64,000 nt of DNA from contig NC_013922.1 in the NCBI RefSeq assembly GCF_000025625.1, positions 2,852,001-2,916,000 of the forward strand, in the 5' to 3' direction. Position 1 is the first letter of the stretch, and every line of letters begins with the position of its first letter. This DNA is from Natrialba magadii ATCC 43099. GTDB lineage: Archaea; Halobacteriota; Halobacteria; Halobacteriales; Natrialbaceae. The position numbers and the translations under genes are program-made. Under the pieces are notes generated by a model. That model was not told where the DNA came from. It did no database searches and saw only the letters and a program-made list of their open reading frames with translations. Positions 9,722-60,234 of this stretch are shown piece after piece.

Positions 9722-9763
9722 CGTCGTATAACAGTTGTTGTAAATACGATTTCTTTATTCACG
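9722..9763. repeat. Left inverted repeat bounding the RAMP cassette
   Basis: The sequence CGTCGTATAACAGTTGTTGT at 9722 and the following TAAATACGATTTCTTTATTCAC recur in inverted orientation at 13937-13977, with a core of about 30 positions holding one mismatch and one indel. It lies in the promoter region of the exchanger gene and just downstream of the last gene of the RAMP operon. CGGAA precedes it at 9716-9720 and follows the right copy at 13978-13982. Confidence 0.75.
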
Positions 9764-9812
9764 GAACCGAGTGATGTTTAGTTGCCGATTCGCCTGTCAT
9801 CGTCCGGTTCTC

Positions 9813-10745
9813 TCACTCCGTAGTTTTGCCGTTCTTCTCTGAGTTCTTACACTGATCTGGACGGGGGTCGACCGGCTTCACTCGAAGCTCTCCGAACCCG
9901 TACTTCGAGTGCGTCCCGACCCGGAGGATGCCGCTCTTCGCGGTCTCGACTGGGCGGTCGCCCTCGTACTTCACGAACTGTCCGTGGTCGACGGTCTGGA
10001 GCCGGTAGACCTCCCGTTGCTCAAGGATCTTCTCCTCTCTCTCACGGAGATCGCGCCGACTCTCTTTCCACCACCACGGCACGTCCTGGTCGGCGGCGCT
10101 GGGATACTCCGACTCCAGTACGAACGGCGTCGTCACCTCCACAAGGAAGGTATCACCGTCCTCGAGCCGGGAGTAGTCCAGGTCATCGAGATCAACAACT
10201 TGCGTGTCCTTCAGCCGGGTGACGCCGTAGCCGTAGTTCCGTTTGCCTCCGAACTGGAGGCCCTCCAGCACGTCCTCGCCCAACGGGAGTGCACCGGGGT
10301 CATCCGCGTGCAGGTAGGCGTTGATGTACCACTTCGTGGTCTGCTGCTGCTTGCGAACACCCTCCGGCTTGCCCATGATCGTTTCGTGGGACAGCGTCGG
10401 GTGCCCGCTCTGCGGGCGGATGTCGTGCGTGTTCAGCGCGTCTCGCGGTCGACTGTCGAGAAGCCAGCGCTGGGCCGGGTTCCGCATCAGGAACAGATCA
10501 TCGTAGCTCTCGACGTCCGGCAGGCCGCTTCCGAGGTACGGCCGGATGCCGCTCTGAGAGTGCTCTTCGGGAAACGTCCCGAACTGGCCGGGAACGAACA
10601 TCCCGTGACTAGCCTGGAGGTGCTGGTGGACATCGTGCGGAACGTGCTGGTCGAGGGCGTGGAGGATGGCGTTGCCCGAGACGTAGTACGGATGGCCGAT
10701 GTAGTCCATCTCCAGCTCCCAGTGAACCTGCTGGATGCGCGTCAC
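9813..10745 (-). CDS. Diverged Cas5-like RAMP protein (HRAMP-type)
   Basis: A 310-residue protein starting at a GTG whose codon overlaps the TGA of the upstream gene (GTGA). Two glycine-rich loops typical of RAMP ferredoxin folds are visible: FGGKRNYGYGVTRL near residues 163-176 and VGTHSKYGFGELRV near 275-288. A tryptophan- and charge-rich segment (DVPWWWKESRRDLRERE) lies between them. RAMP proteins bind guide RNA in class 1 CRISPR complexes; Cas5 caps the 5' handle. Assignment as the Cas5 homologue rests on its company (Cas7-like partner, conserved third protein) and my recollection of haloarchaeal HRAMP loci, not on an alignment. It is the last gene of a six-gene overlapping operon. Confidence 0.65.
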   Translation of the reverse strand: MTRIQQVHWELEMDYIGHPYYVSGNAILHALDQHVPHDVHQHLQASHGMFVPGQFGTFPEEHSQSGIRPYLGSGLPDVESYDDLFLMRNPAQRWLLDSRPRDALNTHDIRPQSGHPTLSHETIMGKPEGVRKQQQTTKWYINAYLHADDPGALPLGEDVLEGLQFGGKRNYGYGVTRLKDTQVVDLDDLDYSRLEDGDTFLVEVTTPFVLESEYPSAADQDVPWWWKESRRDLREREEKILEQREVYRLQTVDHGQFVKYEGDRPVETAKSGILRVGTHSKYGFGELRVKPVDPRPDQCKNSEKNGKTTE

Positions 10746-11482
10746 TGGTCGAAAACCCCCTGGAAGTCCTCGATGGACTGGAGTGCCGTCGACCACGCGC
10801 CGATCCGGCGGAGGTTCGAATCCAGCACCATGTCGTACTTGTCGTGTGCCGTGTCCAGCGGGTGTGCCGTGAGGCGATTCCACGTCGACGCCCAAGACCG
10901 CCACGGGCGACTCCCAAGTCGGGCCGACGGCTGGCCTCGAGCGTCGACATCGATCCGCAGGGCGAACTCCTCGCTGGCGTAGATCGTCCGGTGAAGTACG
11001 ATCTCGTCGGCGTCGTCGACGACCAGCCGGAGATCGGCGAACTCGTGACCGGCGCGGTAGTTGTCCAGCAGGGCCGCCACGAGCAAGGTGTGGTACTTCA
11101 GGCTCGTGTACGGGTAGTAGACGCTCTCGTTGAACGCCGAGACGACATCGCTCTCCAGCCACATCCGATGGATGGTCTCTGGATCGTCTTCGGTCAGGAG
11201 TTCCTGGACGGCACCCTCGACACCGTTGCGCGTGAATTCCTGCGGGTCGTATCGGCTTTCTCCCTCGATGAGCGACAGCCGGTAGAGCGTCTCGTGGTTC
11301 TCGACTGTTTGCTCAGGCTGGCCGCTGGGCCGGCTCAGTGCGGACGCATCGCCATCAGCGCCGTGAGGGACGGTCTGGTTCACGGGCACCCCCGCGAAGG
11401 TCTCGGGGGCGTACTCGTGGGGCTGCCCGTTCATCTTGTGGGCGTCGTGGCGGTAGACCGCCACCATCGTGTCGTCGCTCAT
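10742..11482 (-). CDS. Conserved partner protein of the RAMP operon
   Basis: A 246-residue protein whose ATG overlaps the stop of the Cas7-like gene by four bases and whose stop overlaps the Cas5-like start. I see no known catalytic motif. It has a histidine/tyrosine-containing N-terminus (AVYRHDAHKMNG), an acidic middle with a likely helical stretch (SLKYHTLLVAALLDNYRAGHEF) and a tryptophan-rich C-terminal part. HRAMP loci, as I recall them, carry one uncharacterised conserved protein with the Cas5 and Cas7 homologues; this is the obvious candidate. It may act as a small or large subunit of a ribonucleoprotein complex, but that is inference from position. Confidence 0.6.
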   Translation of the reverse strand: MSDDTMVAVYRHDAHKMNGQPHEYAPETFAGVPVNQTVPHGADGDASALSRPSGQPEQTVENHETLYRLSLIEGESRYDPQEFTRNGVEGAVQELLTEDDPETIHRMWLESDVVSAFNESVYYPYTSLKYHTLLVAALLDNYRAGHEFADLRLVVDDADEIVLHRTIYASEEFALRIDVDARGQPSARLGSRPWRSWASTWNRLTAHPLDTAHDKYDMVLDSNLRRIGAWSTALQSIEDFQGVFDQ

Positions 11483-12342
11483 GATCCCTCCTCGATGCGC
11501 TCCTCGAAGGCGTCGACGAACGCCGGACGGAAGTCTTCGGCCCACTGGTCGTCCTTCTCGTCCATCGCGTTCGTATTGCCTTTCCCGCGGTCGAACACAC
11601 GCTTCAGTTCGCGCTCCTCGTAGAGCGGGTTGATGAGTTCGCAGTCGACGATCCCCGCGCCGAAGTTGCGAGCACCGCCCAGTTGGTGCATGAAGTCGGT
11701 CTTGTGGGCATCGAGGAAGTCGATGCTCTCGGCTAACAGGCCCAGGAACTCCGGCTTCATCTCCCGGAAAGAGAGGTGCCAGCAGCCGTCCAGATTCGCC
11801 ACGGCGTCGATCTCTGCGTTCCGCAACGGTTCGCGATTGTCCTCTCGATTCCGGGAGACGACGTTCCGATTGAGCCGGCGGTAGTGACCTTCGGCTTGCC
11901 CGCGCGTGTAGTCCACGCTGTTGCGGACTGGATTGAACTTGATTGGTCGTCGCATCACCTTGCCAGGAACACTACCGAAGCCGCCGAAGAGGTCGAAGAC
12001 GACACAGCCGTCGTCTTCCTTCGGATCGTCGGTACACACGCCCTTCTTGTGGTAGCCCGCCTCGAGATCGCGATCGTAGACGCCATCCTTGCGGAAGTTC
12101 GCGTTCGCTTCCCCAGGGTGGCAGGCAGTACCGCCGTACTGCTGGACAATCTCCTCCATCCCATGACGTAGCCATCCAGAGAGTGGGAAGGCGGGGATGA
12201 TCCCACCGATCTGGTTCTGTGGATCGTCGTCCTCGTAATTGCCGTTGCTGGCGTGGTGCCGATCGGTCATAATCGAGTCGCCGACTACCAGCAGGTCGGT
12301 CTGAATCCGGACGAACACGTCGCGGTCGATGTCTTCAATCAT
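11479..12342 (-). CDS. Diverged Cas7-like RAMP protein (HRAMP-type)
   Basis: A 287-residue RAMP-fold protein. Near residues 48-64 it carries GIIPAFPLSGWLRHGMEE, equivalent to the IP-x-SSLKG-x-LR signature of Cas7/Csm3/Cmr families. LFGGFGSVPGKVMRRPIKF (about 119-137) resembles the following LFG block, and QLGGARNFGAGIVDC (221-235) is the C-terminal glycine-rich loop. The early VRIQTDLLVVGDSIMTDRHH resembles the first RAMP strand. Cas7 proteins polymerise along guide RNA as complex backbone. Only one Cas7-like gene is present, as in type I or IV complexes. It overlaps the upstream nuclease gene by 8 bases and the downstream gene by 4. No Cas10, Cas8 or Cas3 is encoded nearby. Confidence 0.75.
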   Translation of the reverse strand: MIEDIDRDVFVRIQTDLLVVGDSIMTDRHHASNGNYEDDDPQNQIGGIIPAFPLSGWLRHGMEEIVQQYGGTACHPGEANANFRKDGVYDRDLEAGYHKKGVCTDDPKEDDGCVVFDLFGGFGSVPGKVMRRPIKFNPVRNSVDYTRGQAEGHYRRLNRNVVSRNREDNREPLRNAEIDAVANLDGCWHLSFREMKPEFLGLLAESIDFLDAHKTDFMHQLGGARNFGAGIVDCELINPLYEERELKRVFDRGKGNTNAMDEKDDQWAEDFRPAFVDAFEERIEEGS

Positions 12343-12994
12343 GATGGCCGATCACCTCGGTTGTCTCTCCGAGGTCAACTTGCTGGGCAATACTCACAGC
12401 GGCACTTCGATCACGGCATACGGTGTCGACGGAGCAGTCTTCGGTAGTACACTCCAGCGTGTCGTTCTTGAGGCGACCGAGATCGCCACAGACGTGGCAC
12501 TGCTGGGTCGTGTACTTCGGATTAACGTACGTCACGGGAATTCTGACCTCCTGTGCTTTCAGTGCAACCGCGTGCTGGAGGGCCGAGAGCAACCACGTCC
12601 CGACGTCGTCGACCGTCCGACGTTCCCACAGTGTCGCCTCGCAGAACGATAGGTCCTCGAGCACGAGCGTCGGTGCGGGAAGCTCCTGGGCGTAGCGAAC
12701 AACGCGGACAGCGGCATCGTAGACCTGCGGTCGGATCTGGTGCCAGAGTGCCGCGAACAGCTGAGTCTGCCCGTCTGTGGTGTCAAATTTCGCGCCTTGG
12801 AGTGCTTGCATCGCCTCGGCGAGGATTTTGTGGCGTTTCCGAACGTGATCGCCCTCGATCACGAGCGCTGCCTCCAAGTCGCCGTCTGCTGGGGCTACGG
12901 CGACGAGGTTCTTCACCCCGACATCCACACCGACCGGCGTGGGCTCCAGTGGTCGATCTCGGAAAGTCGTCGCGGGGAGCGATGTGCTGCTCAT
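12335..12994 (-). CDS. Miniature TnpB-like RuvC nuclease inside the RAMP operon
   Basis: A 219-residue protein with the full RuvC and zinc-finger core of the TnpB/OrfB (IS605, Cas12 ancestor) family: RuvC-I GVDVGVKNLVAV (D24), RuvC-II LVLEDLSF (E113), zinc ribbon C166-x2-C169 and C182-x4-C187, RuvC-III CRDRSAAVSIA (D195). It lacks the ~150-200 residue N-terminal region that binds DNA and RNA in TnpB; the RuvC core starts almost at residue 20. No TnpA, no other IS605 element and no degeneration are seen. The start at 12994 is chosen for its ATGA overlap with the upstream gene. Conservation of all three carboxylates suggests an active nuclease recruited by the RAMP proteins. Confidence 0.8.
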   Translation of the reverse strand: MSSTSLPATTFRDRPLEPTPVGVDVGVKNLVAVAPADGDLEAALVIEGDHVRKRHKILAEAMQALQGAKFDTTDGQTQLFAALWHQIRPQVYDAAVRVVRYAQELPAPTLVLEDLSFCEATLWERRTVDDVGTWLLSALQHAVALKAQEVRIPVTYVNPKYTTQQCHVCGDLGRLKNDTLECTTEDCSVDTVCRDRSAAVSIAQQVDLGETTEVIGHHD

Positions 12995-13305
12995 CGGCTG
13001 TTCACCCACTTCTCACGGTCAGCTGGATCGAAGGCCACGATCTCGTTGAGCGCTTCCTCGAGTTCGGTGGCCGTTCGGAAGGCGTCGAGATTCAGTGACT
13101 CGATCATCGGCCCGTCCTCCGCGTGGACGTGCCAGACGTTCGTCGTTCGGCCGTCGTCGACCTGGCTGATCAGAACCAAATCGTGGTACTCGAGAGCGAC
13201 ACCGTAGGTAGACGCGCCCTCCATCATTTGTGTGAGGAAGTCGAACGTCAAGTGGGAGATATTCTCACAGGGGGCGATCACGTCCGTCAGCTCGAGGAGA
13301 CTCAT
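12991..13305 (-). CDS. Small hypothetical protein of the RAMP operon
   Basis: A 104-residue acidic protein between the nuclease and the first gene of the operon, overlapping each by ATGA. It shows no catalytic or metal motif. The C-terminal half (LNLDAFRTATELEEALNEIVAF) is predicted helical and the centre (TNVWHVHAEDGPMIESLN) looks like a beta hairpin. Tight coupling argues that it is translated with, and functions with, the nuclease and RAMP proteins; it may be an adaptor or regulatory subunit. Not recognised. Confidence 0.55.
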   Translation of the reverse strand: MSLLELTDVIAPCENISHLTFDFLTQMMEGASTYGVALEYHDLVLISQVDDGRTTNVWHVHAEDGPMIESLNLDAFRTATELEEALNEIVAFDPADREKWVNSR

Positions 13306-13562
13306 CGTGACTCCTCCTTGCAGTAGCTGTAGCCGTCATCGCGGCGATTGTGGCGGCACGTTGCTTCGACGCCGCAGCAAATCCATCGGACACGTCTCTT
13401 GTTGGTAATGCGATCGTCTTCGTTCGCGTCGGTGCCGGAATTCTGAAGTCCGGCGGATGCCTTCATTGACATGCTTCGTCTGCTGGCGAAGCACGGTCGG
13501 GCGTGCTCCAACACGCCCCGGCCAACTTCTGACCGGTGTCCCGCGCTTCTTACCAGAAACAT
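13302..13562 (-). CDS. Small cysteine-containing protein, first gene of the RAMP operon
   Basis: An 86-residue frame from an ATG at 13562, or 56 residues from ATG 13472. The C-terminal part has four cysteines (C62, C63, C69, C81 of the long form) in a basic context, compatible with a small zinc finger. The ATG at 13562 lies about 27 bases downstream of a TATA-like element, as expected for a leaderless haloarchaeal mRNA, whereas the shorter start would leave a structured ~90-base leader. Its stop overlaps the next gene by ATGA. Function unknown. Confidence 0.5.
   Translation of the reverse strand: MFLVRSAGHRSEVGRGVLEHARPCFASRRSMSMKASAGLQNSGTDANEDDRITNKRRVRWICCGVEATCRHNRRDDGYSYCKEESR
13473..13518 (-). 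promoter_or_regulatory. Two consecutive stable hairpins at the 5' end of the RAMP operon
   Basis: GCTTCG (13473-13478) pairs with CGAAGC (13487-13492) over an 8-base loop, and GGGCGTG (13499-13505) pairs with CACGCCC (13512-13518) over a 6-base loop. They lie between the operon promoter and the ATG at 13472. They are either early coding sequence of the 86-residue form or a structured leader or small RNA. Confidence 0.45.
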
Positions 13563-13583
13563 GTATCTCCGTGATAATAAAAG

Positions 13584-13617
13584 TTAGTTTATAAGCTAAT
13601 GTTGGCTTATAAGCTAA
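13584..13617. promoter_or_regulatory. Two tandem 16-bp palindromes over the RAMP promoter
   Basis: TTAGTTTATAAGCTAA (13584-13599) and TTGGCTTATAAGCTAA (13602-13617) are near-perfect palindromes 18 bp apart, each centred on a TATA-like TTATAA. The left copy sits at the right distance to be the TATA box of the minus-strand operon; the right copy may serve the divergent gene. A dimeric repressor binding here would block TBP and control both. Confidence 0.65.
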
Positions 13618-13690
13618 CCATTATGGCGATATAACCTAATGTCTATGTTGTATGCCACCATCGGATGGCGGTATGGGAGTCACGGCGATT

Positions 13691-13870
13691 ATGACTAAGA
13701 CGGACCGGGAACGTGTCAGTGGGGAAGCAGATGTTCCCGACAGCAAGCGATACGAGTCCATCTCTCGCGTGCGCCAACGGATTGATGAGCTTGAGACGGA
13801 TGCCGAGATTCTGAAGGAAAACCACCCTGATCTGTACGAGGAGCTCCGAGAGGCGGTTTGTGACGAATGA
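13691..13870 (+). CDS. Small helical protein divergent from the RAMP operon
   Basis: A 59-residue protein (MTKTDRERVSGEADVPDSKR...) with two predicted charged amphipathic helices (SISRVRQRIDELETDAEILK and HPDLYEELREAV). An upstream ATG at 13652 would add 13 residues. Small charged proteins of this type occur in haloarchaeal accessory regions and could be a regulator or an antitoxin-like partner, but I see no helix-turn-helix or named domain. It shares the palindrome-bearing promoter region with the RAMP operon and lies inside the inverted-repeat boundaries. Confidence 0.6.
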   Translation: MTKTDRERVSGEADVPDSKRYESISRVRQRIDELETDAEILKENHPDLYEELREAVCDE

Positions 13871-13904
13871 GCGACGAGAACGACGAGAATTAAACAGAAC
13901 TCTA

Positions 13905-13918
13905 TCACTTATAAGTGA
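13905..13918. promoter_or_regulatory. 14-bp perfect palindrome TCACTTATAAGTGA
   Basis: It has the same CTTATAAG centre as the palindromes at 13584-13617, located just downstream of the small divergent gene and upstream of the right inverted repeat. It may be a third operator or a TATA box for a transcript crossing the repeat. Confidence 0.4.
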
Positions 13919-13936
13919 GATGGTTCCGTAGTCCTT

Positions 13937-13977
13937 CGTGAATAAAGAAATGTATTCACAACAACTGATAAGCGACG
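13937..13977. repeat. Right inverted repeat bounding the RAMP cassette
   Basis: CGTGAATAAAGAAATGTATT followed by CACAACAACTGATAAGCGACG is the inverted copy of 9722-9763. GGTTCCGT also precedes both copies on their inner sides, with 10 extra bases here, so homology extends further. It contains its own short palindrome, GTGAATA pairing with TATTCAC. Confidence 0.75.
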
Positions 13978-57670: not shown

Positions 57671-58165
57671 TTATTCGTCGACGCCGCCGTCGTCGACCCA
57701 CACTCTGAGCGTCCAGCCGTCATATTCGACGTAGTGAGTCGCCTCTCTCGATCTCGCCCCGTCGTTTCGATGCTGGCCGTTGGAGCCGCTTTCGGAGCGC
57801 GCGTTCCGTGCGGTTTCGAGGGTTTCCTGGCCCTCGTCGCTCGCCCGCCCCGTGTGGTCCGATTGGGCGGATCGACCGATCGGATCGTCGGCCTCAATGC
57901 GTTCGACTGCCTCGAAGAGACTCGGATAGAGGCCACGGCCCGCGATGTATTCTTCGTCAGCGTCGAGAACGGAGTAGCCACTGTAAACGTCGGCTTCGTC
58001 GACGACTTCGGCATGGAGGAAGATCCATCCACCGCCATCGTTTCCGTCGTCCTCTTCGGGTTTGTCATCGTCATCTGGTTCGTCGTCCAAACCTTCGTCG
58101 TCAGATCCGACGCACCCTGCGGTGAGAAGTATGGCCACGCACACTAATCGTCGAGTCACATACAT
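57671..58165 (-). CDS. Predicted lipoprotein
   Basis: A 164-residue secreted protein with a hydrophobic signal and lipobox (LVCVAILLTAGCVGS, cysteine 18), an Asp/Glu linker (DDEPDDDDKPEEDD), and a small domain (WIFLHAEVVDEADVYSGYSVLDADEEYIAGRGLYPSLFEAVERI). It ends with a Ser/Gly/Arg-rich stretch and YVEYDGWTLRVWVDDGG. It follows the Tat protease after three bases, so the two are co-transcribed; it may be an inhibitor, immunity protein or co-substrate. No family recognised. Confidence 0.7.
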   Translation of the reverse strand: MYVTRRLVCVAILLTAGCVGSDDEGLDDEPDDDDKPEEDDGNDGGGWIFLHAEVVDEADVYSGYSVLDADEEYIAGRGLYPSLFEAVERIEADDPIGRSAQSDHTGRASDEGQETLETARNARSESGSNGQHRNDGARSREATHYVEYDGWTLRVWVDDGGVDE

Positions 58166-58168
58166 TGG

Positions 58169-59584
58169 TTAAACTACTTCGACGTTGAATCCATCTTCTA
58201 TGTCTCCGATCCATATACCAAGGGCTAGATCTTGGGGCGGCCATCCATCGCCAGGATCCCTCCTGTCACCTGCTCTATGGAGGCCGGAAACCATAAAATC
58301 GCCGTTTTCATCGACAAAATATGGACAACCTGAGTCACCCCCGCCGTCAGATGCGTCACGCATCAGTTCGATCTGGTCGGGACGATCGGGGTCCTCATCG
58401 TATCCCCAAAGCGTGTGTTCGCACCGACCTGTTCGGATCCCTTGTTTACAGGTTGGACCCATATTGTCTTTGTAGTAATCTTTTCCGATGCGACCTGCCG
58501 TTGAAAGCGCCCCGGAGAACTCATTGGTCCCACTATCGCTCGCTAACCGATTACCAGCACTGAGCTCTTCATCAATGCCAACCCTATATGTCTCGATCAA
58601 CGCAGCATCCCACGGCCAGCTTTCTTCTCCCCTCCGGTCTTTTATTTCATCAACTTCACCAATTTTGTCAGTATTGAGAATTCCTCCCTGATGAATTGTC
58701 CGTCCAATTGCATCTTGTGGATCTTCCTCCGGTTCACCGTCGTCGTCCAGGTCACTCTCGAAAACACCATGTGCTGAAGTTAAAAATTTCGGATCTCCAA
58801 AGGTTGATTTCACGCGAGGGCCAAGCGAGAGCGTCCCGTCGTACCCGTCGGGATCAGTATCTATCCGACACCCAGTAGCGCAGGTAATGTCTCCGTCATC
58901 GTTCTCGTATCTATATGGATGCTGGAAAAATTCGACACCGGTCGTTCCCTCGTCGCATTCTTCGTCGTCACAGGATTCATCCCACTCGACTGATTCAGAA
59001 AACCGCAACTCAATACCATCTCTTTCGGTTTCATAGTCGCCTTCGCCTGCTACCCCAGAAACCGTGTCTGGGAGTTCGCCTTGTAACTCGTCTACGGTGA
59101 TGTCCGCGGTTTCTTTTTTTGTTTCCGACAGTTCGGAGAGTGAGGTTCGTTTATCAAACGAGTCGTATCTAATTCTCGTTGAGCGGACGACGCCGACGTG
59201 GTAGGGTTCAGTTCCGTTGTTACTTTGCATGATGACTTTAGACGAAATTAGTCCGCTGTCATCCAGTTGATCGATTCTCCGTTGAACCTTTCTCGCAGCA
59301 TCGAACGCAGTTTCCGCTACCATCCAATCGTTGTGTGAGATTGTGTAGTATTCGGGTTCACGTTCGCTGAGGGTTTCGGGATACGGTGGTTCCTCGTACT
59401 TTTCAGCATCTGGTCGCTTGAGAGCTCCCAATCGGGGAACTTCTTCTGTGGGATCACCGGTTATGTTTTCTAGTTTTTCTTTGTCCAGGTGCAGTGCAGC
59501 CTCGGCTGATACGCCCATTGTCACAAGCGATTTGACGAACCTTCGCCGTCCCATTCCACGCAACTTGTTGGTTCTATCGACCAT
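58169..59584 (-). CDS. Tat-exported trypsin-like serine protease
   Basis: A 471-residue protein with a twin-arginine signal (GMGRRRFVKSLVTMGVSAEAAL). A chymotrypsin-fold triad is visible: histidine in FLTSAHGVFES (near residue 270), aspartate in WPWDAALIE (near 328) and serine in DGGGDSGCPYF (near 418). The middle has acidic, cysteine-containing loops (DESCDDEECDEGTTG). It would be secreted or surface-bound. Codon usage and GC are visibly lower than in the flanking core genes, in keeping with acquisition in element B. Its stop is three bases from the lipoprotein start. Confidence 0.8.
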   Translation of the reverse strand: MVDRTNKLRGMGRRRFVKSLVTMGVSAEAALHLDKEKLENITGDPTEEVPRLGALKRPDAEKYEEPPYPETLSEREPEYYTISHNDWMVAETAFDAARKVQRRIDQLDDSGLISSKVIMQSNNGTEPYHVGVVRSTRIRYDSFDKRTSLSELSETKKETADITVDELQGELPDTVSGVAGEGDYETERDGIELRFSESVEWDESCDDEECDEGTTGVEFFQHPYRYENDDGDITCATGCRIDTDPDGYDGTLSLGPRVKSTFGDPKFLTSAHGVFESDLDDDGEPEEDPQDAIGRTIHQGGILNTDKIGEVDEIKDRRGEESWPWDAALIETYRVGIDEELSAGNRLASDSGTNEFSGALSTAGRIGKDYYKDNMGPTCKQGIRTGRCEHTLWGYDEDPDRPDQIELMRDASDGGGDSGCPYFVDENGDFMVSGLHRAGDRRDPGDGWPPQDLALGIWIGDIEDGFNVEVV

Positions 59585-59676
59585 GTTTCCAGAATTAATT
59601 TCATGATATAAAAAATTATCGTTGGTAGTGATTGTCTATGGAACGGCCGTGGTGAATCGCCATACGGCGGTTGATT

Positions 59677-60234
59677 TCACTGTTTGATGGCACGCTTAAT
59701 GTTATAAACGACACACATCAGGTCAATTTCACGGAACTCTCGATACCAGGATCGCGCACGCACGGCGTCGCCGAGCGTGCGCTTGATCACTGAGAAGACG
59801 GTCTCAGACAGGGCTCTTTGGCCGTAGAGAGCCTCGTCAATCCGCGCGTTATGCGCGTGATCGATGGGGCGGAACTCACGATGCTTGATCAACGGTCTGA
59901 CGCCCTCTTCCCTCAGTTTTTCACGTAACCGTTGCCAGTCGTAGCCTTTGTCCGCAGCGAGGCTGTGCAACTCGCCCGCGTTGCGGCGGGCGAGTTGCCA
60001 GCCGATCTGCGTATCGTGGCGTTTCTTCGTCGTACAATGAACGTCGAGAATGGCCTGCGTTGCGGTGTCAACGAGAGCTGTTACTTTGAGTGTCGGGACG
60101 CGATAATTCGTTCGACGGCAGTAGTGCTTGCTTGCGGTTTCACGGTCGAAAAATGTTGCGTCCATCGCCGCTTGACCGGAGGACTCGTGCAGCTGCGACG
60201 ACAGTCGCAGCAGCACTCGCCAGACGGCGATTTT
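59677..60234 (-). pseudogene. C-terminal half of IS5-type transposase
   Basis: The frame reads WRVLLRLSSQLHESSGQAAMDATFFDRETASKHYCRRTNYRV and continues through LHSLAADKGYDWQRL to RALSETVFSVIKRTLGDAVRARSWYREFREI, the DDE transposase core and C-terminal E motif. The N-terminal ~90 residues are missing here. Confidence 0.85.

Follow-up and report, generated by a model that had tools for sequence, protein, structure and literature searches.

The interval 9722–13977 of a 64,000-nucleotide window of the Natrialba magadii ATCC 43099 genome (contig NC_013922.1, positions 2,852,001 to 2,916,000) corresponds almost exactly to one transposon, an element of 4236 bp (9732–13967) together with its 4-bp target duplications. 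The copy carries no transposase. Its operon runs from a structured RNA leader through variable small cargo genes to a trio of genes for Cas-like proteins, which are the final three. The cassette belongs to HRAMP (haloarchaeal RAMP; Makarova et al. 2019, as cited in PMC8730458), a group of array-less Cas5 and Cas7 homologues that occur with nucleases and uncharacterised proteins (PMC8730458). Beyond this label, the analysis adds the compact Cas10 fold predicted for the third protein, the transposon, a leader of viral type and a split of HRAMP into two clades. That the interval combines a transposon, a minimal effector and a viral-type control region is held with high confidence. The complete explanation, in which a type III-like defence cassette without an array moves with the element and is governed by a switch captured from viruses, stands at about an even chance.

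The identification as HRAMP, first made in an original prediction from the DNA letters, is borne out by the distribution of the genes. A Cas7 homologue is encoded in 105 of 391 halobacterial genomes, and the genes for the third protein and the Cas5-like protein follow cas7 in nearly all of the 60 loci read, so the co-occurrence on which that prediction had staked itself was found. With described HRAMP the cassette shares diverged Cas5 and Cas7 proteins with type III affinity, a third protein that is conserved, the lack of an array and a confinement to Halobacteria. It differs in that the window copy sits within a transposon and follows a leader of viral type, in that the third protein is a predicted compact Cas10, and in its RuvC cargo, which takes the place of the HNH or PD-(D/E)xK nuclease most often associated with HRAMP (PMC12669027). 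The open reading frames (ORFs) 9813–10745, 10742–11482, 11479–12342, 12335–12994 and 12991–13305 all lie on the minus strand and overlap by 4–8 nt. Five of the six overlapping genes originally listed thus stand; the sixth (13302–13562) is mostly RNA leader, followed by a 56-aa ORF.

A transposon copy without a transposase

A repeat scan located a 26-nt inverted repeat pair flanking the interval, and repeat and locus comparison set the terminal inverted repeats at 9732–9762 on the plus strand at the cas5 end (CAGTTGTTGTAAATACGATTTCTTTATTCAC) and at 13937–13967 on the minus strand at the regulator end. Directly outside them lie identical copies of ATAA (9728–9731 and 13968–13971), and a clean empty site with one ATAA is present in three congeners (G338, G162 and G262). 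Longer target duplications were weighed by eye and dropped in favour of the 4-bp repeats. An end motif, CAGTTGTTGnnAATACGATTTCTTTATTCA, is common to the compared loci and stands just after cas5 and again at the far end. Exact 4-bp direct repeats of the form NTAN flank 12 of the 14 loci in which both ends were resolved, compared with identical 4-bp repeats in 11% of mismatched end pairs (P 2e-10 for the difference). Many relatives, including L033, L036, L047 and L059, encode a DDE transposase of ~610 aa (DDE_Tnp_1) just inside the far end. The L036 element, of 5.8 kb, retains its transposase and both ends intact. A pHSAL2-type copy (L142) is carried by Halobacterium salinarum. An intact transposase is found neither in the window copy nor in the second HRAMP copy of the same genome, and the window copy is therefore a non-autonomous member of the family. 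Close relatives of the transposase in the 391 genomes lie for the most part within ~8 kb of HRAMP genes, with few exceptions, as judged from coordinates read by eye.

Several related elements were seen on the way. Two elements of ~380–390 bp with similar ends (L145 at C1:3297815 and L146 at C1:3326345 of the same genome, the former flanked by GTAT on both sides) look like miniature inverted-repeat transposable elements of the HRAMP transposon family. Three additional copies of the end motif precede one HRAMP locus (L048; at approximately -3047, -818 and -437 relative to cas7) and are perhaps nested insertions. Elements with the leader, the third gene and cas5 and with no intact cas7 (L122, L129) are HRAMP cassettes from which cas7 has been lost, and genome G262 holds several broken cas7 copies beside intact-looking RuvC genes (L192, L193), that is, decaying HRAMP cassettes.

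HRAMP falls into two clades. Clade A is transposon-borne and lacks the usual nucleases; its sister, clade B, has nucleases and lacks the transposon ends. In the Cas7 tree, a branch with 100/100 support separates the transposon-borne group from loci with HNH, DnaQ-like or PD-(D/E)xK-like nucleases, and no locus of the tree combines membership of the transposon group with a nuclease of these kinds. With up to 10 mismatches allowed, 41 of 48 first-group loci have the end motif behind cas5, against 0 of 13 second-group loci and 2 of 1220 shuffled sequences. Among 57 fresh loci from another collection, the motif (up to 8 mismatches) was present in 10 of 16 testable first-clade loci and in none of the second clade, and a nuclease was present in 33 of 34 second-clade loci and in none of the first. 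The window locus falls into the clade devoid of HNH, DnaQ and PD-(D/E)xK genes, and carries RuvC instead. If one clade is a nuclease-free transposon and its sister keeps nucleases outside a transposon, then defence and transposition can be tested directly against each other.

Genes in the compared loci were called by a simple script. The 80 HRAMP loci that were kept come from haloarchaea or uncultured archaea, except for one on a short contig of a metagenome-assembled genome; this 3-kb contig (L245) had been assigned to an Elusimicrobia bin, but the HRAMP Cas7 that it encodes is of haloarchaeal type, and a binning error is probable. No HRAMP Cas7 was found in the phage records searched.

The predicted Cas10-Cas5-Cas7 trio

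The last gene of the operon (9813–10745, minus strand) encodes a Cas5-like protein of 310 aa of the Cmr3/Csm4 type, and all 44 of its relatives compared match the PADLOC Cmr3 models, with a best E-value of 7e-9. The Cas7-like protein (287 aa; 11479–12342, minus strand) is of the Csm3 type: 29 of 49 relatives match the Csm3 model, and its predicted structure, of moderate quality (pLDDT, the predicted local distance difference test, 75.6), finds structural matches only among CRISPR Cas7/RAMP proteins, the best being type IV-A with a Z score of 11.1. The Cas5 and Cas7 names, and the RRM-type fold expected from structure prediction, thus hold up. The sequence features from which these names were derived are likewise present, namely the glycine-rich loops GGKRNYGYG and GGARNFGAG in the cassette proteins and the motif IIPAFPLSGWLR in the Cas7-like protein. 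No convincing relative came out of PDB sequence searches, whether Cas7 and Cas5 served as single queries or all three families as profiles.

The protein between them (246 aa; 10742–11482, minus strand) is assigned to no family by Pfam, NCBIfam or PADLOC and was placed by structure comparison only. Its AlphaFold model has a pLDDT of 91. The top 27 Foldseek matches are all Csm1, with weak E-values of 0.3 and above. VIA-align, which re-examines the candidates supplied by Foldseek and is not an independent search, aligned 231 of the 246 residues with a Z score of 12.7 and a root-mean-square deviation of 3.9, and listed only Csm1 and Cmr2 chains. The family alignment shows an invariant RHDxHK, an HD-like motif, and conserved GADxDAxxLSR and SLKYH. 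The order of these motifs agrees with that of Cas10, with RHDxHK for HDxGK, GADxDAxxLSR, and SLKYH for SLYDH. No GGDD cyclase motif occurs in the aligned family. By its predicted fold the third protein thus appears to be a compact Cas10, which goes against the original statement that Cas10 is absent. Since the protein resembles Cas10 in both fold and motif order, HRAMP seems to represent a minimal effector of type III-like composition, made up of Cas10, Cas5 and Cas7. If so, HRAMP would constitute a complete minimal type III-like effector that can be rebuilt from three small proteins.

In its Cas10-like, Cmr3/Csm4-like Cas5 and Csm3-like Cas7 subunits the cassette resembles the type III CRISPR-Cas (Csm/Cmr) systems. 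It differs from them in lacking an array at the locus, Cas1 or another adaptation gene, and in a Cas10 part that is one third of the normal size and has no GGDD motif. Some type III systems are also devoid of an active cyclase.

A CRISPR-derived complex within a transposon raises the question of whether the complex serves transposition. In CRISPR-associated transposons (CASTs), as in the present element, a CRISPR-derived effector without its usual nuclease resides inside a transposon with target duplications. A CAST-like role, in which the Cas10-Cas5-Cas7 complex picks the target site or steers or limits the transposase in place of any defence, is the main rival explanation and is considered unlikely. 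The two-clade split fits it: no transposon-clade locus has the HNH, DnaQ or PD-(D/E)xK genes of the sister clade, and known CASTs have no interference nuclease. The transposase subfamily is also mostly linked to HRAMP, and distances among the transposases correlate with those among the Cas7 proteins (Mantel r 0.36, p 0.01). However, the three core genes show dN/dS ratios (nonsynonymous to synonymous substitution rates) of 0.06–0.37 in pairwise comparison with the window copy, and the trio is therefore under purifying selection even in copies that lack the transposase. The family moreover has a DDE_Tnp_1 transposase and 4-bp duplications instead of Tn7-like proteins, and no array; none of the window genes match Tn7-like families, and Pfam/NCBIfam-type searches recognised no TnsC/TniQ-like partner among the genes of the window element. 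The same genome also holds elements that have similar ends but lack HRAMP genes, so the ends need no trio in cis, and no guide was found. A more specific form of the idea, in which clade A HRAMP is a second, independent CRISPR-derived transposon whose minimal complex, lacking the interference nucleases of the sister clade, steers or controls the DDE transposase and whose expression is tied to infection by the halovirus leader, is rated as distinctly unlikely. The sister clade has nucleases such as defence systems carry, which supports the reading of the trio as a defence effector.

The RNA leader and the control region

The structured leader occupies 13473–13554 on the minus strand, as delimited by covariation, folding energy and the models R1 and R2. 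The region beats 200 of 200 shuffled sequences in its fold (z -4.1). Alignment of 12 and then 31 sequences supported an outer stem, P1, with two hairpins, P2 and P3. It likewise supported P4, an alternative hairpin that has one strand in common with P1 and ends at the AUG. The covariation of P1 and of P4 each lies above all 500 shuffles and slid controls clearly fail, although the shuffles give no strict probability because the sequences are related. P1 and P4 exclude one another, which suggests that the leader RNA acts as a switch between them.

Covariance searches, with E-values that are rough, found the leader ahead of roughly half of the HRAMP operons borne on transposons and did not find it with the nuclease-bearing clade B. 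It also occurs in many genomes away from HRAMP, including genomes that lack cas7, where a divergent small regulator adjoins it and the operon that it heads consists of small genes; SWIM-protein and Orc1-like genes are often present as well. The same arrangement is present in tailed haloviruses (Humcor1, 51.5 bits; BJ1, 39.4; DL_1.7, 36.8) and in two IMG/VR contigs. A plain blastn search of phage records with the leader gave no match, the covariance model being required, and Rfam (15) contained no credible match. Two other views of the segment were discarded. The 86-aa protein encoded at 13302–13562 was rejected because its tblastn matches fall in different frames, as expected of a conserved RNA, and an RNA confined to HRAMP was rejected in view of the viruses and cas7-free genomes in which it occurs.

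The regulator-like gene of family F5 (13652–13870, plus strand) occupies the corresponding place next to the leader both in HRAMP loci and in haloviruses, and is a putative regulator. Between it and the leader, the probable promoter region (13576–13615, minus strand) contains a TATA-like TTTTATTA and two 18-bp tandem repeats that are a possible operator. These repeats have TTATAA cores and span 13580–13615. As in the early control regions of the tailed haloviruses Humcor1 and BJ1, a divergent small regulator is followed by a structured leader and, directly after it, by a start codon; the virus region differs in driving the SWIM-protein and other early genes, and the transposon region in driving the cargo genes and HRAMP. 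Since the combination of leader and regulator also occurs in tailed haloviruses, it is concluded from these comparisons that such HRAMP operons carry an early control region of halovirus type. The covarying RNA element is common to haloviruses and the mobile cassettes of their hosts, and offers a handle on how the system is switched on.

Given its strong and conserved structure, its presence ahead of roughly half of the operons borne on transposons and the RNA-binding nature of RAMP proteins, the RNA might instead be a guide or scaffold of the complex. This is very unlikely, however: the RNA is present in viruses and cas7-free genomes, is not found with clade B HRAMP, lies downstream of the promoter and ahead of the start codon, and lacks an evident guide segment. 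It has the look of a 5' leader that viruses also possess, and not of a guide. The position of the leader directly upstream of the operon also agrees with a trio that is a passenger without a defence function, for example a leader-binding regulator of the element's own expression, as does the lack of a conserved nuclease in the transposon-borne clade. Yet the sister clade, which has neither leader nor transposon, keeps the same trio beside nucleases, and a passenger role is quite unlikely.

Cargo genes and mode of action

The leader is directly followed, at ATG 13472, by the first cargo gene (13302–13472, minus strand; 56 aa, Cys/His-containing), as in relatives. The second (12991–13305, minus strand; 104 aa, family 21) is of unknown function, is under weak purifying selection and accompanies only RuvC cargo in the loci read. 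The third (12335–12994, minus strand) encodes a stand-alone RuvC and zinc-ribbon protein of 219 aa that matches NCBIfam guided_TnpB with 1.7e-15 over model positions 196–388, the match starting at 196 of 389. The complete core originally noted is confirmed, with D24, E113, D195 and the zinc-ribbon cysteines intact. These residues liken the protein to TnpB and Cas12f, from which it differs in comprising the C-terminal half only; the profile match places the N-terminal nucleic-acid-binding (RNA-binding) half of TnpB outside it.

The original prediction further made RuvC the dedicated nuclease of the system, acting with the Cas5-Cas7 complex. The gene immediately precedes cas7 and overlaps it by 8 nt, the D-E-D residues of the protein are intact, and most of its close homologues adjoin HRAMP genes. 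However, no more than a minority of HRAMP loci encode it, unrelated cargo replaces it elsewhere, and in four loci (L187–L190) homologues stand behind the same leader without HRAMP genes. A dedicated effector is thus improbable, and the RuvC protein is best seen, from its gene neighbourhoods, as exchangeable cargo that may work with the Cas-like complex. In L187–L190 the homologues accompany genes for SWIM-protein or TAT-signal proteins, and the operons are probably derived from viruses or plasmids.

A mechanism for the transposon-borne cassette is proposed tentatively. Until infection by, or induction of, a virus of the same regulatory type, the regulator and leader would hold the operon low. 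Thereafter the Cas trio would assemble on an RNA that does not stem from a CRISPR array, guidance by such an RNA being possible, and would attack nucleic acid; the cutting would be done by the Cas10 part at its HD-like site, by the Cas7 backbone or by a cargo nuclease, for instance RuvC. Movement of the transposon would carry the cassette from one haloarchaeon to another. Several points weigh against this explanation. In the HD-like site the Asp of YDH, a metal-ligand Asp in Cas10, is lost (SLKYH for SLYDH), and the site may be dead because of this. Most transposon-borne loci have no recognisable nuclease. No source of guides was seen, in keeping with the original prediction: a search of the locus found no repeat-spacer array, and a genome-wide search found no Cas1, with a positive control in Haloferax volcanii. 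The Cas6 Pfam model had no match in the window genome either; the same model also misses Haloferax volcanii and is hence uninformative. The control region may have been captured from a virus by the HRAMP operon. Elsewhere in the window, the GC content falls to 0.51 at 58001–60000, compared with ~0.62 in other parts, which perhaps marks another recent insertion.

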